From an uncultured Bacteroidales bacterium (GTDB lineage Bacteria; Bacteroidota; Bacteroidia; Bacteroidales; F082), in assembly GCA_947305795.1 (NCBI GenBank), contig CAMZEK010000012.1:1-55455 (forward strand): a stretch of 55,455 nt of DNA. The letters run 5' to 3'. Of the stretch, positions 2,897-20,342 are shown in pieces. The position numbers were made by a program, and so were the translations under genes. Position 1 is the stretch's first letter, and the number at the start of each line of letters is the position of its first letter. The notes beneath the pieces are model-generated. The model worked only from the letters and a program-made list of their open reading frames with translations, had not been told where the DNA came from and ran no database searches.

Positions 2897-3349
2897 ATGA
2901 GCAAGCAAGACGACTATAAACTCCTATTATCGCAAATCAAGGCGATGGTGAAGGACGAAAGCGACCCCGTCGCGAATATGGCCAATGTGGCCGCACTAAT
3001 ACAAGAGGCGTTCCATTTCTGGTGGACGGGCTTCTACCGTGTCATTGGCAACCAATTGGTGCTCGGGCCATTCCAAGGCCCCGTGGCTTGCACCCGAATC
3101 GGCTTCGGCAAAGGCGTTTGCGGCACTTCATGGAAAGAACGCAAAACCCTTGTGGTTGAGGATGTGGAGCAATTTCCCGGCCATATCGCATGCAGCAGCG
3201 AGTCGCGGAGCGAAATCGTGGTGCCTTTATATAAAGGTGATGAAGTCATCGGCGTGTTGGACATCGATAGCGAGCGTTTGGCTACTTTCGATGCCATTGA
3301 CAAGGAATGGCTGGAGCAGATTGCCGAAGTGGTTTCCAGCGCTTTATAG
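2897..3349 (+). CDS. msrC: GAF-domain free methionine-(R)-sulfoxide reductase (fRMsr)
   Basis: Reduces free methionine-R-sulfoxide to methionine in the cytoplasm. The 150-residue protein is a single GAF domain. Its three cysteines C65, C75 and C99 have spacings of 10 and 24, the same as the catalytic cysteines 84, 94 and 118 of E. coli fRMsr (known from the family). The conserved FWWTGFY and VLDIDS segments are present. A TACTTTTG box lies 18 bases upstream of the start. The stop overlaps the convergent LysR gene by 6 bases. Confidence 0.92.
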   Translation: MSKQDDYKLLLSQIKAMVKDESDPVANMANVAALIQEAFHFWWTGFYRVIGNQLVLGPFQGPVACTRIGFGKGVCGTSWKERKTLVVEDVEQFPGHIACSSESRSEIVVPLYKGDEVIGVLDIDSERLATFDAIDKEWLEQIAEVVSSAL

Positions 3350-4270
3350 CCTTAAATACTCGGTCATAATCACGCTGTCCCACAACTCGTAAGGGATGAT
3401 GGCTTTTATCGACCTTATCACGATGTTCATAATCTGCTCGTGAATGTAATCTTTCCTAATGGCAAGGCAGATGGTCCTTTTCGGTACAGGGTTGACGATG
3501 GGCTTCAGGCATTTTCGCATCGACGCCGACAGAAACTTGATATGTGTCTCAGGGATAATGGTGATGCCCCCGCTTTCGTTGGCGATTTGCAGCAAGATTC
3601 CCACACGTCCACCTTCATACATCTTTTCGTAGGTGAAAGTTTCGCCTGGCCTCAACATGGACCTATCGAACAAGCGAACGCCGTCTTTCATAATCCAAAC
3701 CGGGTTGTCTAAGACATGGCCACGTTCCAAACTCTCATGTCGCGCCATGGCATTTTCGGGAGAGACATAGGCGAAGAACCTTTCATAATATAAAGGTATC
3801 TCCAACAAGTCTTGGTCGTTGACAGGGGCCGTCAAAACACCCATATCTATCTCAGCTTTTTTCAGTTTGGAGATGATGGTGGAGGTAATCATTTCCTCCG
3901 TCCGTAGTCGCAGCGCAGGATAACGCAGCCTCATGAACTTGAACATTTCCGCCATTAGCACGGGTGCCACTGAAGTCGTCATGGCGATATTCAAATCGCC
4001 GGAGCAAAGTTCTTTCTCCGAACGCGTCAGTTCGACCAATTGCTTGGAGTGATAGACCACCTGCCGGGCCTCGTCAATCACTTTCCTGCCGATTTCCGTC
4101 ACCGAAACGGGGTGCGTCTCCCGATTGAAAATCCTCACATCCAATTCCTCTTCCAATTTTTTCACCATCAAACTCATGGTGGATTGCGTCACGCCACAAG
4201 CCTCGGCAGCCTCAACGAAATAGCCGTGATCCTCAATGGCGATAATGTATTCCAATTGTTGCAGGGTCAT
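3344..4270 (-). CDS. LysR-family regulator, OxyR-like but without the redox cysteine pair
   Basis: Transcription regulator of 308 residues: N-terminal winged helix-turn-helix (residues 1-60, with the LysR pattern EAAEACGVTQSTMSLMVKKL) followed by a periplasmic-binding-like effector domain. The overall sequence resembles Bacteroidota OxyR, but the segment where OxyR has its first redox cysteine (WLLxEGHC-like) reads VWIMKDGVRLF, and no cysteine pair follows. It may therefore sense something other than peroxide. It is divergent from trkH, with its own TATCTTTG box at 4292-4299 (minus), so trkH is a candidate target. Its 3' end overlaps the msrC-like gene by 6 bases. Confidence 0.85.
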   Translation of the reverse strand: MTLQQLEYIIAIEDHGYFVEAAEACGVTQSTMSLMVKKLEEELDVRIFNRETHPVSVTEIGRKVIDEARQVVYHSKQLVELTRSEKELCSGDLNIAMTTSVAPVLMAEMFKFMRLRYPALRLRTEEMITSTIISKLKKAEIDMGVLTAPVNDQDLLEIPLYYERFFAYVSPENAMARHESLERGHVLDNPVWIMKDGVRLFDRSMLRPGETFTYEKMYEGGRVGILLQIANESGGITIIPETHIKFLSASMRKCLKPIVNPVPKRTICLAIRKDYIHEQIMNIVIRSIKAIIPYELWDSVIMTEYLRL

Positions 4271-10832: not shown

Positions 10833-12113
10833 ATGAACGGCATAGATGAAATAAGCAAGAAAAGGCTCTATATCGAGGGGCTGAAACAGGCCATTGCCCT
10901 GCCTCTGCCTGAGGAACTCAGCCGCGACTTGGAGGAAATCTTCCAAGACGATGAGACTGAAGAAGACATCAAGGAAACGATGAGGTTTTGGATAGAGGTG
11001 GAGGGGCCTTTCTGCAACGCCATTGTCTTTGTCCACAACAACCGCTTCCTTGTGGAGGAAAAGGAGGCCATCCTCAACGGGGATGAGGAAACGCCCTTCA
11101 TGATGCCTGACGTGATTTTCAACATCTTGCGGACACTGCTCAAGACTACCGTCATGGAGTTTCTTTCCGTCCTGCAAATCCCATCAAACGAAAAGGCCCA
11201 ACTGCTTGACTGTGTCGAGCGCGACGACAAAACAGGGGTCTCTTCTTTGCTCGAACGTACCCAATGCGACACCACGGCTTTGGCCAAATTATGTTCCAAT
11301 TGCATGGATTGTTCATCCACGGGTTTCGAGATGAAGGGTGACGACCTTGCTTATTATCTCGACCATGTCGTGAGCTTCCTCAAAAAGAAAGAGAGTGCCG
11401 ATGGCGAGAAAATGTTGGAAGCCGTGAAGCGTTTCCAGCCTTCCGCCGAGGTGCTGCTGGCCGACGACGACAGCGACGAAGCCCTGAACAACTATTTTGC
11501 CGACTACCGTCATTTCTTGGAAACCGATTTGGCCACCAATCTCCATTACTATTGGGATTGGTACGACGATTTCACCCTGAAGGAGCGCAACCTGATAGAG
11601 CCGATTCTCGACAACCCCTTGGCCGTGGACTTGGTGAACCGGATTTGGAAAGACTATGAGGCCGCGCTACTTGGCGGTTCCTTCTCCCTTCCCGACGACT
11701 TCTTCCACTCGAAATGCGTCGCCGATGACACGGAACACCTGCACATCAAACTGTCCGTTGAGGACAAGGGCACGGAGCTTTTCACCGAGTTCATCAACTA
11801 TGTGGCTGAGAAGGGCTATATCGAAGACAGCCCCGCCGTGAAAAACCTCTTCGCCTATCGCCTGACAGGATATTACAGGCCCGAAGGCGACCTGCCGACC
11901 ATCGTCTGGAACGGAAAAAACGGCAAGTCCTACGAGCTCATCTACATCCTCCGTCACCTCTGCGACCGCGCCGATTACAAGAAGATGCGCCGTTTCTTCG
12001 AAGGCCCCGAATGGGTGAAGGAAAAGGACAGCAGCTATGCCCACTCAGCGGATTCCGAATTCAGGAGAAAAATGACGGAGTTTTATCCTGGTGTTTGTGA
12101 GTTCAAGAAGTGA
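10833..12113 (+). CDS. Hypothetical acidic protein
   Basis: A 426-residue cytoplasmic-looking protein that I do not recognise. It is acidic and mostly helical in appearance, with no signal peptide or membrane segment. It has a Cys pair region (CSNCMDCSS near residue 155) and a C-terminal segment (about 360-426) rich in aromatic and charged residues that looks like a small separate domain. It follows the PEP-utilising enzyme by 65 bases, on the same strand, without an obvious terminator, so co-transcription is possible. Base composition is close to the core genes to its left, so the island to the right probably starts after it. Confidence 0.7.
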   Translation: MNGIDEISKKRLYIEGLKQAIALPLPEELSRDLEEIFQDDETEEDIKETMRFWIEVEGPFCNAIVFVHNNRFLVEEKEAILNGDEETPFMMPDVIFNILRTLLKTTVMEFLSVLQIPSNEKAQLLDCVERDDKTGVSSLLERTQCDTTALAKLCSNCMDCSSTGFEMKGDDLAYYLDHVVSFLKKKESADGEKMLEAVKRFQPSAEVLLADDDSDEALNNYFADYRHFLETDLATNLHYYWDWYDDFTLKERNLIEPILDNPLAVDLVNRIWKDYEAALLGGSFSLPDDFFHSKCVADDTEHLHIKLSVEDKGTELFTEFINYVAEKGYIEDSPAVKNLFAYRLTGYYRPEGDLPTIVWNGKNGKSYELIYILRHLCDRADYKKMRRFFEGPEWVKEKDSSYAHSADSEFRRKMTEFYPGVCEFKK

Positions 12114-12156
12114 TTTTTCAAACATTTTGAGAACCAAATATTTATCCGACAGCAAA

Positions 12157-12228
12157 CGACAACAAACGACTACTGTCGACAACAAACGTTTAATCAACGG
12201 CTTAGTCTTGACAGAGTTTTCATCTTTG
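12157..12228 (+). promoter_or_regulatory. Direct repeats and -7 box before the 12256 gene
   Basis: Two exact copies of CGACAACAAACG lie at 12157-12168 and 12177-12188, 20 bases apart start to start (two helical turns). A CATCTTTG box (7 of 8 to TAnnTTTG) lies at 12221-12228, 27 bases before the chosen ATG. The repeats could bind a regulator on one face of the helix. Confidence 0.45.
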
Positions 12229-12255
12229 TGGTGTGAAACAATTAAACCCGCAAAT

Positions 12256-12774
12256 ATGGGAACACAAGAAAACATCAAAAGCAACCTGACGGAAAAGAAG
12301 CCTGCAGCCAAGACAACCCCCGAATACATTGAGGGCAACCCAACGGAGAAGACGAAAAGCCCGGAAAGACGTCGTTTAATTGAGAGTTATTATGAATCGT
12401 TGTGGAAAGAACTGCAGCGGGAAAACGGGACGAATGGCATTTTCAACCCGTTTTTGGGTGTTACTGTCATTGTCAAGAAAGGAGAAAGCGACAAAAAGAC
12501 AATCAATCGCGCTTCTGCTGACTGGAAATCGACCTTTGCCGTAAAACATCTAAAGCAAGTCATCACATCAGCTCATGGAAAAGAAGACGCACCTGTTTAT
12601 GTGGAACCCAAGACGGGAACACAAAAAAAGAACGGTTACAAGAATATGGCCATCCTATATTATGAGTTTATCCACCCCGAGACAGCGTATTTGAACTTTA
12701 CGGTAAAACTGACAATAGGAATCAAAAGCGACGGGAAACATGTTCAGTATTGTGTGAATAAGATAGAGGTATAA
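12256..12774 (+). CDS. Hypothetical protein, possible LPD/BECR-type domain at C terminus
   Basis: I chose ATG 12256 (172 residues). The frame stays open back to 12091, but that part overlaps the previous gene and the promoter-like region. Residues 1-45 are Lys/Thr/Pro-rich and probably disordered. From about residue 85 a compact alpha/beta domain appears (FAVKHLKQVITSAHG, then beta strands ending in VQYCVNKIEV). This weakly resembles domains in large polyvalent phage/conjugative proteins and RelE/barnase-like folds. That reading is a guess, because no catalytic residue can be assigned. A hairpin follows at 12783-12833. Confidence 0.6.
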   Translation: MGTQENIKSNLTEKKPAAKTTPEYIEGNPTEKTKSPERRRLIESYYESLWKELQRENGTNGIFNPFLGVTVIVKKGESDKKTINRASADWKSTFAVKHLKQVITSAHGKEDAPVYVEPKTGTQKKNGYKNMAILYYEFIHPETAYLNFTVKLTIGIKSDGKHVQYCVNKIEV

Positions 12775-12838
12775 AACAAAAACCAATCGTATCCAGCGAT
12801 TACCCTAACCGATAGGGAACACATACGATGTGGTTTTC
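12775..12838 (-). ncRNA. Candidate small RNA, minus strand
   Basis: On the minus strand a TAATTTTG -7 box (12852-12845) is followed about 7 bases later by a 60-65 base stretch dominated by a hairpin. ATCGTAT (12786-12792) pairs with ATACGAT (12823-12829), extended by CCA/TGG and with an inner CCCTA/TAGGG hairpin (12803-12817). A T-rich tail (GGTTTTTGTTTT) follows. The promoter segment GATTTTGTTGTA-TTTTGCAG closely resembles that of the tRNA-Ala gene at 20342. The hairpin could instead just be a terminator for the gene ending at 12774. Confidence 0.4.
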
Positions 12839-12934
12839 TGCCTGCAAAATTACAACAAAATCCAAAACACCGCCATAAACATTGAAAAATAATTCCCGAA
12901 ATCAGGAAAAGCCGTTTGGCCAAACCCTATTTCC

Positions 12935-12985
12935 ACTATAAGTTTACTATAATCCCCGCCAGCATGGGCGGATTGCCTATTTTTG
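12935..12985 (+). promoter_or_regulatory. Island promoter module, copy A
   Basis: Box ACTATAA-N4-ACTATAATCCCC at 12935-12957, then TATTTTTG -7 element at 12978-12985. The distance from box start to -7 start is 43 bases. Copies B (16368-16418) and C (18674-18724) have the same box at the same distance. It points toward the DUF6140-like and EF-Tu-barrel genes. The two ACTAYAA half-sites are 11 bases apart, about one helical turn. Confidence 0.75.
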
Positions 12986-13345
12986 CCGAAAAACTTGAGG
13001 GAAAGATGAAACCGAAGAAAAAACACCGACAAACTGAGCATTGGTCTGAAAAATGACTATATTTGCAGCGAGTTGGGGGAGAAATCCCGACTCGGCAAGG
13101 AAGGCATTCTAAGTTCCAAGCAGTGAAATCGCCAACAAACTCACGGGAACGAAGACCGATGCTCACCTTTTGTTTTGATGTCAATTGGTGCCCGAAGCAC
13201 CGACTTGATAACAAGCAAGCGTGGGATATTTGTTCTTCGGTTCATTCGTGAAGGGTGTTTGGCGATACCTACTGCTTGATGGACTGATTGGCTTAGGTCT
13301 CACGCTTTTCTTGCAAGAATAGAACAACCAACTAAACAAGCAATT
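12986..13345 (+). other. Long leader region before the DUF6140-like gene
   Basis: This stretch of about 360 bases has no convincing full-length gene. It holds a 16-codon reading frame at 13006-13056 (begins MKPKKKHRQTEHW, after a GAGGGAAAG purine run). A second -7 box TATATTTG follows at 13058-13065, then about 280 bases of leader. An open frame continues across 13063-13251 but has no family features. It could be a regulatory leader or decayed coding sequence. Confidence 0.4.
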
Positions 13346-13564
13346 ATGTTATACAGAATCACAGTAAAGAACCCGAAACTAAGCAACGGCATCCGAGTAG
13401 AAAAAGGAATGTCCGTGGACATAGTAAGCAACAGCATGAGCAACCCCGTAACAACCAACGGCGGACAAGTCGTAGTGGATGCTTTCATGCGGATTTATGG
13501 AATTGATATTAAGAAAGCTGGTGCTTTGAGCATGGCTTATTTGGATGTAGAAAGGATTAGGTGA
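13346..13564 (+). CDS. Small DUF6140-like protein
   Basis: A 72-residue protein starting LYRITVKNPKLSNG and containing VEKGMSVDIVSNSMSNPV and AFMRIYGIDIKKAGAL. This resembles small Bacteroides proteins filed, as I recall, under DUF6140; function unknown. The stop is 1 base before the start of the 693-residue gene, so the two form an operon. It is downstream of island promoter copy A and of a second -7 box at 13058-13065. Confidence 0.7.
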   Translation: MLYRITVKNPKLSNGIRVEKGMSVDIVSNSMSNPVTTNGGQVVVDAFMRIYGIDIKKAGALSMAYLDVERIR

Positions 13565-13565
13565 T

Positions 13566-15647
13566 ATGGGAAAAACAAATATTGAGATTCTTAAAGAAAA
13601 AGAGATTCAGATGTTCAATGCGTTTAATTCGAGACAACATAAACTAACAATTGCATTGGCAGATGAGATACTAGATAATCCTGATGTTGATGAAGAAACA
13701 ATCATGATCTCAAAATGGAGAAAGGCAAATAGCTTTGCATCATTAGGTCGTAATCTTTGGAACTGGGATTATTCGCCAAATGATGAAAAGAATAAAGAAG
13801 CGAGAGAACTTTTATCTCAAGCTAGAGATTTGTATTATGATTATGGAAATGAATATGGGTGGAATGATGATATCGTTTTTGAATTATTATGGATAAATAA
13901 TACATGGGAATATTCCATTTTAGCTAGAAATTTTGCAATAATCTTATTGGGTTCAGACAATCAATCTTACAAGTCAATAGCGGCGGAAGTATATGACACA
14001 AGTACCAAGTTTATTATGCAAGAGTTTAGTAAATATATTGATAATGCTTGGTATTACGAATTGGATGAAGATGAAAGGAAAGACGAGGAACTTGTTGAAA
14101 ATGCACGGATGGATGCTATTGATTCCATGTTTACCAATAATATCCCATATGAATCACGGAAATATGTGTATATTGGTCGTAACATACAGCAGATTGCAGG
14201 AACATATCAACTTTATGACAGAGAAAGAATAATCAACTGGATTTTCACTCTTGACCAACTTCCGCCAGATATGGTTTTCCCATCATTAAGCCGTCCGCAG
14301 TCAGGGCTTTATATGGCACATCCTGTTTTGACAGACCACTATTATCCAATGAAAAGTGCTGAAGAAGCATTGTTTATGGAAAAGGTAAGGGAATTTTGTT
14401 GGTTTGTGCAATGCTTGGGTGCAACAAGGGTTTCTTTCCATTCCAACAAAGGCTTGTCGGTCTCGCAAGGAATGGGCTCAACAATGAACGTCGAAGCGCA
14501 AGTTGGGATAAAAGCTGTCAATATTGGTGGCGGATACAGTAATACGATGAGACAAGACAATGCCTATACTTCCAACCAACAAGTGGAACTTGTCCAAAAC
14601 TTCGCTCCGAAAAAGAAAGCCTATTGTCCCGATGATTTGATTTGGCTTGATTCTGATCCAGCATGGAAAATGCTGCTCAAACAAAGACTTGAGGGTGGCA
14701 TTATGGAATACACCTATAAGATTTCATCTTCTGAAACTTGCCAAATGTCAACAAATGAGATGGAATCAGTGAAAGCAAATTTTGAGTATATGATGATTAA
14801 AGCCAATGGCAGTTATGATGTTAGCACTGATAAGACTTTCAGTAGCAACGAAGAAACCGAATGGTCAATTCATGTTGAGTTCGCACCATTGGAAGAATTA
14901 ACAGAAGAGCCAAACAAAACAAAATCAGATAATAATCAAAGCGAAACGACCATGAACGATTACGAAAAAATGGACGGAACCATGAGCCTCACAAAAGAAC
15001 AAGTTAGAGAATATAACACAAGAGCCGATAACTCTTTTTCTATGGTAATAAGTGATGTGAGGCAATTGGAGAATTATCCAGAAAAGCCTGTAGCACTTGG
15101 TCGTATATGGTCGGGAAACATTGATACAGATAAAGATAATCATATTGTAATTGTAGATAATGATGGAGGGTTCTTGAAAGCCGAGGTTTTCGGAGTATTC
15201 ATGTTCAATAAAATCCTGAAAGATGCAGAATGTGGTGATGCCTGTGGTATTATTATAGATGGCGTGGGGTTTGATGATTTAGCAGTTGGCTCAACAATCT
15301 ATCTTGCATCTGAACATGAAAGTTTACAAAGTGAACTTACTGAAGCCGAGCAAGAATATCTTGACATGGTAAAGGAATGTTTTGAAGACGGCGAAATTGG
15401 TAGCCGCGAACGCAAACTGCTTGACAAGATTCGTATAAAAAACGGCATTTCAGAGGAAAGAGCCAAAGAGTTGGAATCAACTTTAACCGTTCCGCAATTA
15501 ACCGATGATGAAAAGGAATATCTTGAAGCCTATAAGGATGCTTGCGAGGACGGCAAAGTGTCTGATAAACAACGCCGATTGTTGGAAAAGTTGAGAGTTA
15601 TGTATGGTATTTCTGAGGAGAGGGCAAAGCTATTGGAAAACATTTGA
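13566..15647 (+). CDS. Large hypothetical protein with EF-Tu domain-2-like barrel and C-terminal helical repeats
   Basis: A 693-residue protein of unknown function, no signal peptide. The N-terminal part (1-270) is helical and Trp/Tyr/Asp-rich. The middle (about 275-450) is beta-rich with a Gly/Ser segment (GLSVSQGMGSTMNVEAQVG) and ends in SSNEETEWSIHVEFAPLE. Residues about 489-581 align by eye with domain 2 of EF-Tu: FSMVISDV, GRIWSGNI, VFGVFMFNKIL, GDACGIIIDGV. No GTPase domain precedes it. Residues about 595-693 are two tandem copies of a roughly 50-residue helical repeat (EYLE...DGxxSxxxRxLLxKxR...GISEERAKxLE). Lower GC than flanking core genes suggests transfer. Such modular proteins occur in conflict systems, but no effector is evident here. 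Confidence 0.72.
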   Translation: MGKTNIEILKEKEIQMFNAFNSRQHKLTIALADEILDNPDVDEETIMISKWRKANSFASLGRNLWNWDYSPNDEKNKEARELLSQARDLYYDYGNEYGWNDDIVFELLWINNTWEYSILARNFAIILLGSDNQSYKSIAAEVYDTSTKFIMQEFSKYIDNAWYYELDEDERKDEELVENARMDAIDSMFTNNIPYESRKYVYIGRNIQQIAGTYQLYDRERIINWIFTLDQLPPDMVFPSLSRPQSGLYMAHPVLTDHYYPMKSAEEALFMEKVREFCWFVQCLGATRVSFHSNKGLSVSQGMGSTMNVEAQVGIKAVNIGGGYSNTMRQDNAYTSNQQVELVQNFAPKKKAYCPDDLIWLDSDPAWKMLLKQRLEGGIMEYTYKISSSETCQMSTNEMESVKANFEYMMIKANGSYDVSTDKTFSSNEETEWSIHVEFAPLEELTEEPNKTKSDNNQSETTMNDYEKMDGTMSLTKEQVREYNTRADNSFSMVISDVRQLENYPEKPVALGRIWSGNIDTDKDNHIVIVDNDGGFLKAEVFGVFMFNKILKDAECGDACGIIIDGVGFDDLAVGSTIYLASEHESLQSELTEAEQEYLDMVKECFEDGEIGSRERKLLDKIRIKNGISEERAKELESTLTVPQLTDDEKEYLEAYKDACEDGKVSDKQRRLLEKLRVMYGISEERAKLLENI

Positions 15648-16060
15648 TATTCAACATTATGTGAAAAAGCCTCTTCAACTTTAACCCGCCAGCCTACCGA
15701 TTATTCACGGTTACAAAGAAGGTTGTTATACTGTATGGCTGGTTGTGAGTCTAATAATGCGACAGAACGGTTGTGTCAAAATGGCAGCTTTTATAATGAC
15801 ATATTTGACTTTTAAGTCGCACCGTATTTATAATAAAAAAGCATATTAATATATTCATTATCATTGTATTAATAAGTTTTATCAATATTGTTTTTGTTTG
15901 GGTATTATTGACAATTTGGCAGTTTTGATTAATTGGCAAGAGATTTGATAAGACATTAACATCCGATGAAAATTCAAGCCGAGAGTCTATCGGCAGGAGG
16001 GTTGGAAGGAAATCTATTCAACTTTTGGAAGCGGGACTAATAATAAACAACTTTATAATT
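15648..16060 (+). other. AT-rich intergenic region
   Basis: About 410 bases without a supportable gene. The centre (15790-15950) is very AT-rich. A pair of similar units, TTGGCA (15916-15921) with TTTGAT (15924-15929) and TTGGCA (15933-15938) with TTTGAT (15944-15949), forms a short imperfect direct repeat. CATATTTG near 15800 is a weak -7 candidate. No clear terminator follows the 693-residue gene. Confidence 0.4.
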
Positions 16061-16231
16061 ATGTCAAAATTCAACAAAAAGAACCCAAGCAAAAATACGG
16101 GTAACCTATGGACTACTATGGTCGATACCATGAAATCGGGTAATCCTGTTGTGGTAAAGGGCGTGGTTGCTGTAGGTATTGTTATGATGGTTGTAACTGC
16201 AACTTGCACAATCGGCCAACTTTTCAAATGA
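16061..16231 (+). CDS. Small single-pass membrane protein
   Basis: I chose ATG 16061, giving 56 residues; the frame is open 12 codons further upstream, but the region before it is not protein-like. The N-terminal 28 residues are polar and Lys/Asn-rich (begins MSKFNKKNPSKNTGN), followed by one hydrophobic helix (VVVKGVVAVGIVMMVVTATCTI). No cleavage site is clear, so a membrane-anchored small protein is likely. Not recognised. A long-stem inverted repeat lies 70 bases downstream. Small membrane proteins of this kind can be toxins or regulators, but nothing here proves that. Confidence 0.5.
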   Translation: MSKFNKKNPSKNTGNLWTTMVDTMKSGNPVVVKGVVAVGIVMMVVTATCTIGQLFK

Positions 16232-16302
16232 ACCGAGTAATGTTGTTGGATATTTCGCCCCCAACAATGATTTAACAACTCATTATCACCATCACTGGTA
16301 AA

Positions 16303-16347
16303 GAGGAATCCGACTCAAGGTTTTTATTAGCCTCACGCGGATTCCTC
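16303..16347. repeat. Perfect 10-bp inverted repeat
   Basis: GAGGAATCCG at 16303-16312 pairs with CGGATTCCTC at 16338-16347 around a 25-base loop. It lies between the small membrane protein and island promoter copy B. It lacks a long T tail on the plus strand, so it is a weak terminator and might instead be a structured or regulatory site. Confidence 0.6.
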
Positions 16348-16357
16348 AATATTATTA

Positions 16358-16418
16358 ACTATAATCTACTATAACTCTACTACAATCCCAAAGCGCATTT
16401 CCCATTGGCGTAGTTTTG
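16358..16418 (+). promoter_or_regulatory. Island promoter module, copy B (three half-sites)
   Basis: Half-sites ACTATAA at 16358 and 16368 and ACTACAA at 16379 are spaced 10 and 11 bases. The last two form the same box as copies A and C (ACTATAA-N4-ACTACAATCCC, 16368-16389). The -7 element TAGTTTTG is at 16411-16418, exactly 43 bases from the box start. The DnaB-like gene begins at 16442. Confidence 0.75.
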
Positions 16419-16441
16419 CAGCGTAAGTAAAACGCCACATT

Positions 16442-17119
16442 ATGGGAAATGCATTCGCAAAATCAGAAATCGAAGTAATCAAAGCGCAAGAAGCCGAAAA
16501 GAAAAGCAGTTTGGGGAAGTATTTGAACAAGCACATTGCTCCTGGGCATGTGTATGTCGTCGAACAAATCCCCAACTTGATGGCATCTTGTCTTTACCAT
16601 ATCAGCAAACCCATGCTTGTGTTCTCTTCAAAAGCAATTGACGCTCAACTTCTTATGGAGGCGGCAGAAAGCGAAGCCAACGCCCATTCTTCAAAATCAG
16701 GAAAGAACGATCCAAATGGTTTTTCCAATGATATAATCATCGGAAAGAAGCTAAGTGAATTGGAAAAGAGGCCGATTTGGATTGACGACAGCGAGAACCT
16801 TATGGCGATGAATCTGTATGCCCGCTGCCTAAAACTGAGGATGGAGCATAACCTACAGGTTGTTGTGATGGACGATTATCGCTTCCTGCTTGATGATTTC
16901 TTTCAGGAAATCCCTGACGAACTGAAGCTAACCATGCTTCAGAGTCTTTCGGAAAAACTAGGAATCGCTATCATCGCTCAAAAGTGTCCGATAGATGAAA
17001 CCATAGAAGTGGGGAGCAAAAACAACACTTTGATTTTCCATAACAAGTGGTGGGATGATACACCAAAAAGCGAACAAGAAACGGGGTCTGGTTCAATCTT
17101 TGACTATTGGGAATCATGA
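16442..17119 (+). CDS. DnaB-like RecA-fold protein lacking Walker A
   Basis: A 225-residue protein that aligns by eye with the C-terminal ATPase domain of replicative helicase DnaB. APGHVYVVEQIPNL sits where DnaB has its Walker A. It is followed by PMLVFSSKAIDAQLLM (compare FSLEM), RPIWIDDSENLMAMNLYARC (compare PIYIDD), the Walker B-like VVVMDDYRFL, and IIAQKCP (compare ALSQ). The GKT/S of Walker A is gone, so ATP hydrolysis is unlikely. It may bind the host helicase or another RecA-fold partner as a decoy or adaptor (inference). It is driven by island promoter copy B, and its stop overlaps the next start by 4 bases. Confidence 0.65.
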   Translation: MGNAFAKSEIEVIKAQEAEKKSSLGKYLNKHIAPGHVYVVEQIPNLMASCLYHISKPMLVFSSKAIDAQLLMEAAESEANAHSSKSGKNDPNGFSNDIIIGKKLSELEKRPIWIDDSENLMAMNLYARCLKLRMEHNLQVVVMDDYRFLLDDFFQEIPDELKLTMLQSLSEKLGIAIIAQKCPIDETIEVGSKNNTLIFHNKWWDDTPKSEQETGSGSIFDYWES

Positions 17120-17874
17120 AAAACAAAAACCCCTTCTGGATGAAATTAGACTGGCGTGGTGCCCGTCCGCTCACGCTCCGCGAACTCATCATGAAAACCT
17201 ATTTTGAGTCGATGATGGACATTATCATCGACTTTGACCCCAAAATGACCAACCAGGCAGCGGCCTATTTGAGAGCTTGCGAGTGCATCAGGGACATGAA
17301 AGTGAAATACAATCCGGAAGAGATTCTTGCGAAATACGAATACGACATGCCTTTCATCTCTATATTGGAGGGACAGCGTTGGAGCGAGTGGCTGGGAAGT
17401 CCTGTGAGGAGAGCCAAAGACCTCAAATGCACCGACACCGAATTGGCCGCCCATTGCCTTTGGCATTTGACCTTCTACGGCTACACGCCAAAAGAACAAA
17501 GAGAAATCGCCGACCGTGAGAATGAAGAGTTGGAAAAAGAAATGCGGAACGATGAGTTGTGTTTGTGCGACGACATCTATACTGACGAGGAAATCAAGGA
17601 GTTTGCTTTGAGCGGATTATCAAGGGTCAGGGATGAAGTGTTGGAAAGGCTGTTCACTCCCGAAGAAATCGTCGAAATCAAGAAACGCCGCAAGGCTCAT
17701 GTCGACGCTGAAAACGCAAGGAGGGATGCTGCCGATGAGGAGGAAAGGAAACAATTGGAGCAAGACGCAGCATTGAAGTTGGAATTGAGGAAGAAGGCCG
17801 AGGAAGAGAGACGGAGGGAGTGGTATCGCAAATGGAGGAGAAGCAGGCAACGAAACAAACTTAAAAAGCGATGA
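17116..17874 (+). CDS. Hypothetical protein with charged C-terminal helix
   Basis: Start ATG 17116 overlaps the previous stop as ATGA, giving 252 residues and translational coupling to the DnaB-like gene. Not recognised. The N-terminal 130 residues are mixed helical (TLRELIMKTYFESMMDIIID). From about residue 190 to the end it is a long Lys/Glu/Arg-rich helix, probably a coiled coil or a nucleic-acid-binding tail ending in RSRQRNKLKKR. With its neighbour it may form a two-protein complex. Confidence 0.7.
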   Translation: MKNKNPFWMKLDWRGARPLTLRELIMKTYFESMMDIIIDFDPKMTNQAAAYLRACECIRDMKVKYNPEEILAKYEYDMPFISILEGQRWSEWLGSPVRRAKDLKCTDTELAAHCLWHLTFYGYTPKEQREIADRENEELEKEMRNDELCLCDDIYTDEEIKEFALSGLSRVRDEVLERLFTPEEIVEIKKRRKAHVDAENARRDAADEEERKQLEQDAALKLELRKKAEEERRREWYRKWRRSRQRNKLKKR

Positions 17875-17890
17875 GGAAATCAAATTAATT

Positions 17891-17952
17891 CCACAACACT
17901 GAAAAAAATCAGCAAATTAGTTGTGGAGAACGGAAAAAGTTGTTTATCTTTG
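17891..17952 (+). promoter_or_regulatory. Promoter and inverted repeat for the small RNA candidate
   Basis: CCACAAC (17891-17897) and GTTGTGG (17920-17926) form a perfect inverted repeat. TTG at 17921-17923 and TATCTTTG at 17945-17952 are a plausible -33/-7 pair (spacer 21). The inverted repeat covers the -33 position, as a repressor site would. Confidence 0.55.
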
Positions 17953-17958
17953 CAGCGT

Positions 17959-18056
17959 CAGAAATGACTAATCCGGTATTTTCCGTGTGGGAGTAAGACT
18001 ACACCGCCCCTGCTCCAAAATTAAAGGATGGAGACCAACAACGGCCTCCATTTTTT
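17959..18056 (+). ncRNA. Candidate small RNA with intrinsic terminator
   Basis: About 95 bases between a good -7 box (17945-17952) and a terminator-like hairpin (ATGGAG at 18028-18033 with CTCCAT at 18046-18051, then TTTTTT). The interior can pair GTGT/ACAC or GGAG/CTCC (about 17986-18016). No start codon with a sensible reading frame is present, and the plus strand has no gene immediately after. I do not recognise an RNA family. Confidence 0.55.
18028..18056. terminator. Shared terminator between the small RNA and the minus-strand nuclease-like gene
   Basis: Hairpin ATGGAG...CTCCAT followed by six T on the plus strand. The minus-strand gene stops at 18055, and in that direction the hairpin is followed by a T-rich CCTTTAATTTT, so it can serve both strands. 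Confidence 0.65.
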
Positions 18057-18597
18057 ATTTCCCGAATTCCTTACGGAACTTCCTGACGAAATCCTTTTGC
18101 AAAACAAAGTTCCGCTTTATGGAAAGCGAAACCTTCCCCTTGAAAATGAGTACCTCCAACGCTTGGGCGTTTTGCTCAAAATAACTCTTGATCTGAACGG
18201 CTAACAGACCTCCATTGTAACGAGTAGTCATGTTCAATAGCACATGGTTCGACTGGCTTGTTGAATCCGTCAACCGATTCGAAGCCGATGAACTTCCTTG
18301 TATGATCTTTAGCTCATACATTCTATAAACGCCTTTTCGTTCGAAGATGAAATCCGCCGTGTTTATCCCACTCGGATTAGGAAGAATATAAACCTTGTAA
18401 CCATGCGAAACAGCCTTATGGGCAGCGTTAAGCAGGTTGCTGTAATCGTCTTCGCTTTCACTGCCTACAGAATAGATATCAACCTCATTCTCAATAGGAT
18501 GAAAATCGCCCATACGGGCAATCCGTTCCACCTGATGGGAATAGTCGGCTCCTTTCAGGGTGTGAAGTTTGGCAAGTTCTGCTGCAATGTCGCTCAT
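18055..18597 (-). CDS. Hypothetical protein, possible PD-(D/E)XK/CdiA_C-like nuclease
   Basis: I chose ATG 18597 (180 residues). The frame is open to 18795, but the upstream 66 codons cover a TAACTTTG -7 box (18623-18616, minus) and island promoter copy C. The 5' leader would be only about 10-15 bases. The C-terminal half has INTADFIFERKGVYRMYELKII, a D-x(n)-E-x-K pattern typical of PD-(D/E)XK nucleases and of the CdiA_C tRNase-like group. It is followed by a Gln/Ser segment (TSQSNHVLLNM) and a beta-rich end. Antitoxin not seen. The function is an inference from pattern only. Confidence 0.6.
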   Translation of the reverse strand: MSDIAAELAKLHTLKGADYSHQVERIARMGDFHPIENEVDIYSVGSESEDDYSNLLNAAHKAVSHGYKVYILPNPSGINTADFIFERKGVYRMYELKIIQGSSSASNRLTDSTSQSNHVLLNMTTRYNGGLLAVQIKSYFEQNAQALEVLIFKGKVSLSIKRNFVLQKDFVRKFRKEFGK

Positions 18598-18673
18598 GGT
18601 TGGTTTTATTCGGCCCAAAGTTATGAAAAACAATGTTTGTTTTGGTGTAGTTCTCAAACAAATGACATATTCC

Positions 18674-18724
18674 ACTATAACTTTACTACAATCCCCAACC
18701 GCATTTGCAAGAGCGATATTTTTG
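18674..18724 (+). promoter_or_regulatory. Island promoter module, copy C
   Basis: Box ACTATAA-N4-ACTACAATCCCC at 18674-18696, preceded by TTCC as in copy A. The -7 element TATTTTTG at 18717-18724 is 43 bases from the box start, as in copies A and B. A second -7 box TAATTTTG lies at 18785-18792. The DUF5131 gene starts at 18868. Confidence 0.75.
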
Positions 18725-18867
18725 TGTCCGTTATCAAAACAAATGCATAAAGTGTCAATAAACAATCGGGAAACGGCTTTTTTGTAATTTTGCACCTTGA
18801 AGATATATGCGGCGCTTATCGTGACCCGATTTGTGAAATGCTATTACAAACCCGTAAGCACTAAGGA

Positions 18868-19671
18868 ATGTCCGAACACTGGGAAATATACGCCGATTGG
18901 AATCCGTGGCACGGTTGCACCAAAATCAGCCCTGGGTGCAAATACTGCTACGTTTACCGTCAGGATGAGATGTACGGCAGCGAGATTTCGAGCAGTGAGT
19001 GCCGCAAGACGGGCAATTTCAACCTACCGATGAAGAAGAAACGCGACAAGTCGTGGAAGATTGAGAGCGGCAAGATTGTCTTCACTTGTTTCACCTCCGA
19101 TTTCCTCCTGAAAGACGCGGACAAATGGCGACCTGAATGCTGGAGGATGATGAAGCAACGGAGCGACCTCTGGTTCTTTTTCTTCACCAAACGCATCGAC
19201 CGCTTCATGGAATGTGTGCCCGACGACTGGGGCGAGGGCTATGACAATGTCATTGTGGGATGCACGGTGGAAAACCAGGAAATGGCCAGCTATCGTTTGC
19301 CCATTTTTCTGTCCCTTCCCATCAAGCATAAAAGCATCATCGTTTCACCCATTCTCACCGCCGTAGACCTTACTCCTTATCTGAATGAAACGATTGAGGA
19401 AGTGTCGGTTGGCGGAGAGTCGGGAGTGAATGCAAGGCCATGTGATTACGACTGGATACTTGATATCAGGAAGCAATGCGTTTCAAAAGACGTTCCTTTT
19501 CGCTTTCACCAGACAGGTGCCCATTTCATCAAGGACGGAAAAATGTTCCGTGTTCCACGATGCTACCAACTCAGTCAAGCCCACAAGGCCAACATCGACT
19601 ACAAGATTGGCAACTACCTTGTCCCGGAAAAGGTGAAATTCGAATGGAAAGACAGTGATTATCACGATTGA
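18868..19671 (+). CDS. DUF5131 family protein (phage Gp37/Gp68-like, radical SAM-like)
   Basis: A 267-residue protein with the family N terminus WNPWHGCTKISPGCKYCY. Cysteines C17, C24 and C27 (C-x6-C-x2-C) suggest a 4Fe-4S radical SAM centre, as inferred for DUF5131. Later family segments include FTCFTSDF, FFFTKRIDRF and VSVGGESG. An in-frame TAA just before the AAGGA-ATG fixes the start. Reaction unknown; homologues are frequent in phages and mobile elements. The alpha/beta hydrolase follows after 6 bases. Downstream of island promoter copy C. Confidence 0.88.
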   Translation: MSEHWEIYADWNPWHGCTKISPGCKYCYVYRQDEMYGSEISSSECRKTGNFNLPMKKKRDKSWKIESGKIVFTCFTSDFLLKDADKWRPECWRMMKQRSDLWFFFFTKRIDRFMECVPDDWGEGYDNVIVGCTVENQEMASYRLPIFLSLPIKHKSIIVSPILTAVDLTPYLNETIEEVSVGGESGVNARPCDYDWILDIRKQCVSKDVPFRFHQTGAHFIKDGKMFRVPRCYQLSQAHKANIDYKIGNYLVPEKVKFEWKDSDYHD

Positions 19672-19677
19672 TTAAAT

Positions 19678-20229
19678 ATGAACGCAATCTTATACATACA
19701 CGGAAAAGACGGAAGTGCCTCTGAAAGCGAGCATTACAAGCCTCTGTTTCCAGATTGTAAAGTCATGGGGCTGGACTATCAGACTTTTACCCCATGGGAG
19801 ACAAGGATTGAAATACACAAAGCCGTTGAGGAACTGAAAACCAAACATGAAGACATCATCCTGATAGCCAACAGCATCGGGGCTTTCTTCTGCTTGAACG
19901 CGAACATTGACAGTATGATTCAGAAGGCTTATTTCATTTCACCTGTGGTTGACATGGAGAAGTTAAATGGCATTGAATTGACAGGAGAATGGCTTCGCTA
20001 TGTCAAGAATCATCCCATTAAATGGAACGCACCGACACATATTCTGTATGGAAGCAACGACAACCTGATTTCGTTCGATACCGTTAGCGACTTTGCAAAA
20101 AAGCACAAGGCCTCCCTAACCGTGATGGAAGGTGGCGAACATTGGTTTCACACGGAAGAGCAGATGCGGTTCTTGGATGAATGGATTAGGAAATGCGAGA
20201 CGAATGAGTCAATCCTTCTCTTGTATTAA
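19678..20229 (+). CDS. Small alpha/beta hydrolase (RBBP9/YdeN-like)
   Basis: A 183-residue serine hydrolase fold: nucleophile S66 in ANSIGA, an acid in YGSNDNLIS, and His in GGEHWFHT near the C terminus. The N terminus reads AILYIHGKDGS, the oxyanion-hole region. It lies 6 bases after the DUF5131 gene, probably co-transcribed. Substrate unknown. A strong terminator follows 5 bases after its stop. Confidence 0.82.
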   Translation: MNAILYIHGKDGSASESEHYKPLFPDCKVMGLDYQTFTPWETRIEIHKAVEELKTKHEDIILIANSIGAFFCLNANIDSMIQKAYFISPVVDMEKLNGIELTGEWLRYVKNHPIKWNAPTHILYGSNDNLISFDTVSDFAKKHKASLTVMEGGEHWFHTEEQMRFLDEWIRKCETNESILLLY

Positions 20230-20257: not shown

Positions 20258-20269
20258 CCATTGATTCCG

Positions 20270-20342
20270 TGGAGATTACCGGACTCGAACCGGCCACCTT
20301 CAGATTGCGAACCTGACGCTCTACCAGATGAGCTAAATCCCC
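20270..20342 (-). tRNA. tRNA-Ala (anticodon CGC)
   Basis: A 73-base cloverleaf on the minus strand. The acceptor stem GGGGATT pairs with AATCTCC and includes the G3-U70 wobble that marks alanine tRNAs. D arm GCTCATCTGGTAGAGC, anticodon stem TCAGG/TCTGA with loop TTCGCAA (anticodon CGC), T arm CCGGTTCGAGTCCGG, discriminator A. CCA is not encoded. A TATTTTTG -7 box lies upstream at 20362-20355 (minus). Confidence 0.95.

Follow-up and report, generated by a model that had tools for sequence, protein, structure and literature searches.

A tandem-repeat box at a constant distance from the -7 element as the putative activator operator of an accessory island in uncultured Bacteroidales

Three promoters in an accessory island of an uncultured Bacteroidales bacterium (F082) share one short upstream repeat, which raises the question of what this element does and what reads it. 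The window, by which we mean the whole stretch of DNA analysed, is positions 1 to 55,455 of contig CAMZEK010000012.1 of assembly GCA_947305795.1, which as searched comprises 2.56 Mb in 88 contigs and is 80% complete. The repeat, hereafter termed the box, has the consensus ACTATAA-N4-ACTAYAATCCC in the window, comprising two direct half-sites, and is followed in 3/3 window promoters by a -7 element of the Bacteroidota sigma-A type (TAnnTTTG). We propose, from sequence comparison and with a probability of about 0.6, that a dedicated, putative activator uses the box as its operator and controls a regulon confined to this type of island. The elements concerned are as follows:

12935..12956, + strand: box A, two direct half-sites with a period of 11 bp
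12978..12985, + strand: -7 element TATTTTTG of promoter A, starting 43 bases after the start of box A
16358..16389, + strand: box B including an upstream third half-site (two main half-sites at 16368-16389)
16411..16418, + strand: -7 element TAGTTTTG of promoter B, starting 43 bases after the start of box B
18674..18695, + strand: box C
18717..18724, + strand: -7 element TATTTTTG of promoter C, starting 43 bases after the start of box C

All three box sequences were read directly, which confirmed the initial annotation in placing copies at 12935, 16368 and 18674, each with its -7 element exactly 43 bases from the box start, and in assigning copy B an extra half-site, namely ACTATAATCT at 16358-16367, 10 bp upstream of the box. 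Its remark that no further copy was seen in the window also holds, as a scan allowing up to three mismatches returned boxes A, B and C and no fourth copy (expected: 0.03 matches; 0/100 shuffles reach three). A scan of the bacterium's own assembly at up to two mismatches likewise returned just the same three copies (reversed control: one match). A chance origin of the boxes is ruled out by the window shuffles and the genome scan, together with the box-only search of the genus and the fixed distance described below.

Relatives were sought in a family sample of 173 genomes, of which 99, the window's genome included, form the genus sample and 74 lie outside the genus. The 11-bp form found in the window matched, with one mismatch, in 8/173 family genomes, three of which have the -7 element at +43 (the window genome, G100 and G119). 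In a fourth genome, G102, the first copy is followed by a degenerate octamer at +43 and a second, slightly different copy has a -7 element; the remaining four matches look like chance. A second form, with half-sites 10 bp apart (ACTATAATYC followed by ACTACATTC), came to light when loci were scanned for the downstream half-site together with a -7 element, which here lies 33 bases from the second half-site and 43 from the first. When this 10-bp box was used alone, with no -7 element in the query, 45 matches with one mismatch were obtained in 25/99 genomes (reversed pattern: three). Among the 44 boxes examined, TAnnTT[T/C]G begins at exactly +43 in 40 and at any other distance from +19 to about +70 in none, while the other four carry a degenerate octamer at +43, either TTTCTTCG (three boxes) or TATTTTGC (one box). 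The 45th box, G105:C73, has its -7 element at +43 as well.

Both spacing classes taken together, 38 loci (564 kb) contain 58 boxes (reversed control: six), with the -7 element at +43 in 50 of these (42/46 of the 10-bp class and 8/12 of the 11-bp class) and at no other distance from 15 to about 87; these loci were partly picked for having such promoters, and the box-only search of 44 boxes is the fairer distance test. Two of the 12 boxes in the 11-bp class are tandem ACTATAATCGT repeats in G096, a simple-repeat tract that resembles a chance match and has no -7 element at +43. The half-site spacing of 10-11 bp initially described is retained in that both periods occur, although relatives favour 10 bp (46/58) over 11 bp (12/58). 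The box is not common at random distances from the -7 element, an outcome that would have spoken against the initial annotation; over the ranges scanned, the boxes examined have a -7 element at +43 or none. Both classes share one constant, the 43-bp distance separating the first half-site from the -7 element. By contrast, the spacers have diverged, with a mean identity of 0.43 in the 10-bp class (28 sites) and 0.38 in the 11-bp class (five sites), as computed for non-redundant sites with the -7 element at +43 after removal of similar spacers. Since box, -7 element and distance persist while the spacers diverge, these comparisons argue for selection on the distance.

The consensus of the 10-bp class reads actATTTTTT, ACTATAATTC and ACTACATTCCATTG in succession, then 19 bases and TATTTT(T/C)G, and includes a third, degenerate repeat, often present, upstream of the two half-sites. 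Some -7 elements are TATTTTCG or TACTTTCG rather than TAnnTTTG, and a few are TTTCTTCG. A Flavobacterium map of transcription start sites (PMC9723704) places the sigma-A -7 box at -12 to -5. Because the -7 element is taken to occupy these positions, the box would span about -55 to -36, abutting the -33 region. The promoters resemble Bacteroidota sigma-A promoters in the -7 element (TAnnTTTG, -12 to -5) and in a TTG at -34 to -32, present in 16/28 non-redundant and 34/48 distinct sites of the 10-bp class, but differ in the tandem-repeat box directly upstream and in that the 11-bp class has no TTG at -33.

A sequence-only profile built from 14 promoters gave strong matches (E<=1e-5) in 28/99 genus genomes, mostly on one contig each and on two contigs in G105, G128 and G099; at E<=0.1 it matches every genus genome, and weak matches therefore represent noise. 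In the 74 family genomes outside the genus a single match was obtained at E<=1e-4 (6.7e-5; under strict filters by which weak sites are lost), and the matched locus has no box plus -7 element even at five mismatches. The exact 11-bp form is present in just two of 393 genomes from the order (five of the 393 belong to this genus), namely G000 and G067, the G067 copy being without a -7 element. A search of the contigs of 85k species that left the distance from box to -7 element variable returned 25 matches on 24 stretches, seven of them at distance 43; five of these sit in four uncultured RUG Bacteroidales/Bacteroidia contigs (RUG in assembly names presumably denoting rumen) and the rest look like chance. 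A wide spread beyond the genus is rejected on the family, order and 85k-species searches. A virus-borne signal is likewise rejected, with no match of the exact 11-bp form in viral contigs and a lone viral match of the 10-bp form that has no -7 element at +43 and looks like chance.

The genes and other features of the island in the window are the following:

10833..12113, + strand: F1, an orphan protein of 426 amino acids at the left island end, with no box ahead of it in the window
13058..13065, + strand: -7-like TATATTTG of P2, a conserved promoter-like block preceding the structured RNA
13063..13313, + strand: conserved structured RNA (from shuffles, alignment and covariation)
13346..13564, + strand: DUF6140 protein, 72 amino acids (PF19637, E 1.5e-35)
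13566..15647, + strand: protein of 693 amino acids with an EF-Tu domain-2-like barrel (Pfam)
16442..17119, + strand: DnaB_C-like protein, 225 amino acids (Pfam); homologues directly box-led in 2/4 relatives
17107..17874, + strand: DUF6557-like protein (Pfam); homologues directly box-led in 4/6 relatives
18868..19671, + strand: DUF5131 protein, 267 amino acids (Pfam); matches the PADLOC candidates PDC-M30B and PDC-M41B
19678..20229, + strand: serine-hydrolase-like protein, 183 amino acids (weak Pfam matches)
20269..20342, - strand: tRNA-Ala(CGC), with its 3' end facing the island; right border in the window

Gene maps of 28 loci, the window included, share a layout in which F1 stands at the left end, often with an ATPase gene next to it, followed by accessory modules and, in many islands, by a right-end pair after a box, F3 (60 amino acids) and the zinc-ribbon protein F2. 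Each locus holds one to four box copies, on one strand and before unrelated genes. Two or more sites of at least 18 bits occur in 19 loci, and within each of these (19/19) all sites, 51 in total, share a strand; nine loci have a single site and, among seven weaker matches, one (L147) lies on the opposite strand. A box precedes F1 itself in G119, G102, G116 and G117, and in all of these but G119 the -7 element is degenerate. It is predicted to be mostly helical (predicted local distance difference test score, pLDDT, 84.5). Its relatives in public protein data number 352; Pfam and PADLOC yielded no match to it, nor did the PDB at E<=0.001.

The box also precedes homologues of the window's box-led genes. 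DnaB-like homologues occur in four relatives, directly box-led in G105 and G113 and at a contig end in one. DUF6557-like homologues are directly box-led in G102, G133, G104 and G108, and are separated from the box by one or two small genes in G067 and G113. Three of four DUF6140 homologues lie in a box-led unit, after the RNA leader in G107 and G117 and after another gene in G102, while the fourth is at a contig end. An absence of the box upstream of relatives' homologues, which would have undermined the initial annotation, is thus not seen for these three families, and its proposal of a single regulon stands to that extent. Box-led genes include those for DnaB-like, DUF6557-like, DUF6140, zinc-ribbon, AbiH/FGE-domain and weakly SprT-like proteins, and PADLOC candidates are matched by two ATPases of relatives as well as by the DUF5131 protein. 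In the 693-amino-acid protein (13566-15647) Pfam finds no GTPase domain, and its C-terminal part is matched in other genus genomes.

An inverted repeat surrounds the -7 element of promoter B (16396-16460), its right arm covering the start codon of the DnaB-like gene; the arms vary between homologues (L047, L045 and L106), yet are complementary in several. Over 15 sites, complementarity around the -7 element was greater in a site's own pair of arms than in permuted pairs (49/20000 permutations as good). A hairpin was nevertheless dropped as a general promoter feature, the signal stemming from few sites (window promoter B most strongly, then G128, G105b and G114).

The structured RNA downstream of promoter A folds with a z of -6.6 against 200 shuffles (13064-13345), and an alignment of 12 members shows compensatory change in 5/58 consensus pairs. 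It occurs in 22/99 genus genomes, in some as fragments, and was found at L042, L106 (two copies), L152, L146 (two copies), L148, L047, L151, L143 and L150. Rfam gave no match at gathering score in the window and none at E<=0.5 in four loci searched. Its own promoter-like block, P2 (13027-13066: GAGCATTGGTCTGAAAAATG..TATATTTG), includes the end of a 16-codon open reading frame that starts with an ATG near 13007. Four RNA-bearing genomes (G049, G062, G076 and G120) have no strong box match and carry the RNA with its own P2, ruling it out as a box-dependent gene.

The box would be an operator made of tandem direct repeats that occupies about -55 to -36 and adjoins the -33 region of sigma-A-type promoters. 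Activator protomers may bind it head-to-tail and cooperatively on one face of the DNA and recruit sigma-A RNA polymerase, so that a single trigger would govern all box-led genes. This geometry has a described parallel. The PHO box is described as a pair of 7-nt direct repeats spaced by 4 nt (PMC4415409), and a PhoB dimer has been modelled as binding in tandem across -35 and the DNA upstream of it, where it contacts sigma and alpha (PMC3348028). The window boxes share with such OmpR/PhoB operators the 7+4+7 plan, the head-to-tail arrangement and, as predicted, a position beside the -35 region, and the 11-nt units of the PHO box are found in the 11-bp class, all three window boxes included. They differ in position, since the PHO box covers -33 whereas the box described here would abut it, in being confined to one island type and in having no response regulator linked to them among 50 scanned proteins. 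The PHO-box consensus differs from the box in sequence. The initial view that no described system bears this signature needs some qualification, since a PHO box has the same layout, though not the same sequence. A literature search returned no paper with the three box strings, DUF6140 or DUF6557, and no relevant regulon as judged by title and start of abstract. We consider the box PHO-box-like in its predicted geometry and do not claim membership of the OmpR/PhoB family, because no reader was found among the proteins scanned and most boxes have a 10-bp period.

Several observations weigh against an activator of this kind. The 10-bp period of the majority class (46/58 boxes) departs from the 11-bp PHO period, and the TTG at -33 is absent from 9/9 distinct sites of the 11-bp class. 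The promoters are of common ancestry, and the sites are accordingly not independent events. When the 11-bp form plus -7 element was sought with three mismatches, 28 matches were obtained against 27 in the reversed control, although near-exact matches do stand out (eight with zero mismatches). One of the four DnaB-like relatives is not directly box-led, and the third operon, which the initial annotation had included in the regulon, has no DUF5131 or hydrolase homologues in the 28 mapped loci. The box need not be the sole control of the RNA behind promoter A, because P2 and the RNA also exist without boxes. No response regulator was found among 50 Pfam-scanned proteins from the window and related islands, a sample rather than every open reading frame. 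A LysR-family gene at 3347-4270 is regulator-like and lies outside the island; LysR-family sites are usually inverted repeats. The regulator-like proteins of relatives comprise Schlafen AlbA_2 proteins in some and a DUF6377-like protein below the cut-off. F1 was rejected as the reader: of the 23/99 genomes that carry it, 21 have a box, and the available sequence of the other seven of the 28 box genomes lacks it; furthermore, it has no recognisable DNA-binding fold. F2 was rejected as it is absent from the 80%-complete window genome.

The likeliest of the alternatives is that the box mainly serves as a recombination junction in an array of cassettes, integron- or rAID-like (recombinase-associated acquired interbacterial defence), with the promoter riding at the cassette edge. 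In 276 pairs of 24 hand-chosen sites, compared over 80-bp flanks, 31 pairs are more than 80% alike on at least one side. The likeness is downstream only in 20 (upstream 0.33-0.50, downstream 0.81-0.97) and upstream only in four (upstream 0.81-0.97, downstream 0.39-0.53), and extends to both sides in seven. G102 is 97.5% identical to window positions 12157-12954, ends this identity inside box A and is unrelated starting with the final bases of the box, and yet keeps the -7 element at +43; it is the clearest case. As similarity within a pair often ends abruptly at the box, the boxes seem to bound exchangeable modules, and the upstream-only class is not explained by selection on promoters alone. 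The co-orientation of the arrays and the tRNA or transfer-messenger RNA (tmRNA) 3' ends at or near one island end, in 10/16 relatives scanned and in the window, also accord with recombination. Such an end immediately adjoins the right border of the island in the window, L143, L150, L157 and L044, while in L146, L148, L149, L151, L153 and L159 its distance from F2 is 0.7-3.9 kb; the remaining six relatives have none there, and the border gene varies between tRNA-Ala, tRNA-Ser and tmRNA.

A pure recombination site, however, has no need of a fixed 43 bp to the -7 element, and no repeat of the tRNA end was found at the island's far side in 11 loci scanned. Furthermore, a tyrosine recombinase (PF00589) is absent from the island contig in 12/13 box genomes, the window's included, these contigs being incomplete and other recombinase families not having been sought; G119 has one, 3.6 kb past its last box. 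The published rAID description is of co-oriented accessory genes with conserved intergenic motifs in Bacteroidales (PMC12247911), with orphan-immunity genes, a GC content below 41% and a linked tyrosine recombinase as defining features. The islands share the co-orientation and the motifs in 19/19 multi-site loci, but differ in the missing recombinase (12/13 genomes), in that Pfam scans gave no immunity family among the proteins covered and in that the motif is a promoter plus operator-like box. In the window, 1-kb blocks from 12000 to 19999 have a GC content of 37-47%. Integron cassette arrays are modular and co-oriented, with units bounded by a repeated element. The islands resemble them in these respects, with the box as the repeated element, but again have no linked integrase (PF00589) in 12/13 genomes, and this element sits ahead of the gene and includes the gene's promoter. 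A box that is chiefly a recombination junction appears unlikely.

Under the preferred reading of an activator operator, newcomer genes would enter the regulon when a module joins at the box, because similarity breaks at the box in both directions. A bolder form, in which the box doubles as operator and as joining site of a tRNA/tmRNA-associated island that grows without a recombinase of its own and places newcomers under one island-specific activator of a new kind, is possible, if doubtful.

Slightly less probable than a junction is that there is no regulator at all and that the box is an UP-like element that boosts promoters constitutively and is copied along with a mobile promoter module. 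Many sites' 5' leaders share ancestry and the element is A+T-rich, lies upstream of and adjoins -35 and has yielded no reader, as such a booster would have it; set against this, the box is highly sequence-specific, its repeats are phased at 10-11 bp, and it is absent from the rest of its own genome as searched (80% complete), where a general booster would be useful too. The least probable reading makes the box part of an extended promoter that is recognised by an alternative sigma factor, or by some other factor associated with RNA polymerase, instead of by a separate activator; this would suit the rigid distance and the variant -7 elements, but the -7 is otherwise an ordinary sigma-A element, the TTG keeps its normal -33 place in 34/48 distinct 10-bp-class sites, and sigma alone is not expected to read two to three repeats from -55 to -36. 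Where the initial annotation left the choice between an activator and a sigma-like factor, the activator is thus the more likely, because the -7 element is of the ordinary kind and many 10-bp-class promoters keep the -33 TTG.

If the box is indeed the operator of a dedicated activator, a large number of unrelated accessory genes, most of them uncharacterised and some of them candidates for a role in defence, would constitute a single regulon, whose members the rigid promoter signature would reveal from the sequence by itself. This would provide a handle on the regulator and its trigger, and a case of horizontally acquired genes under common control in Bacteroidales.

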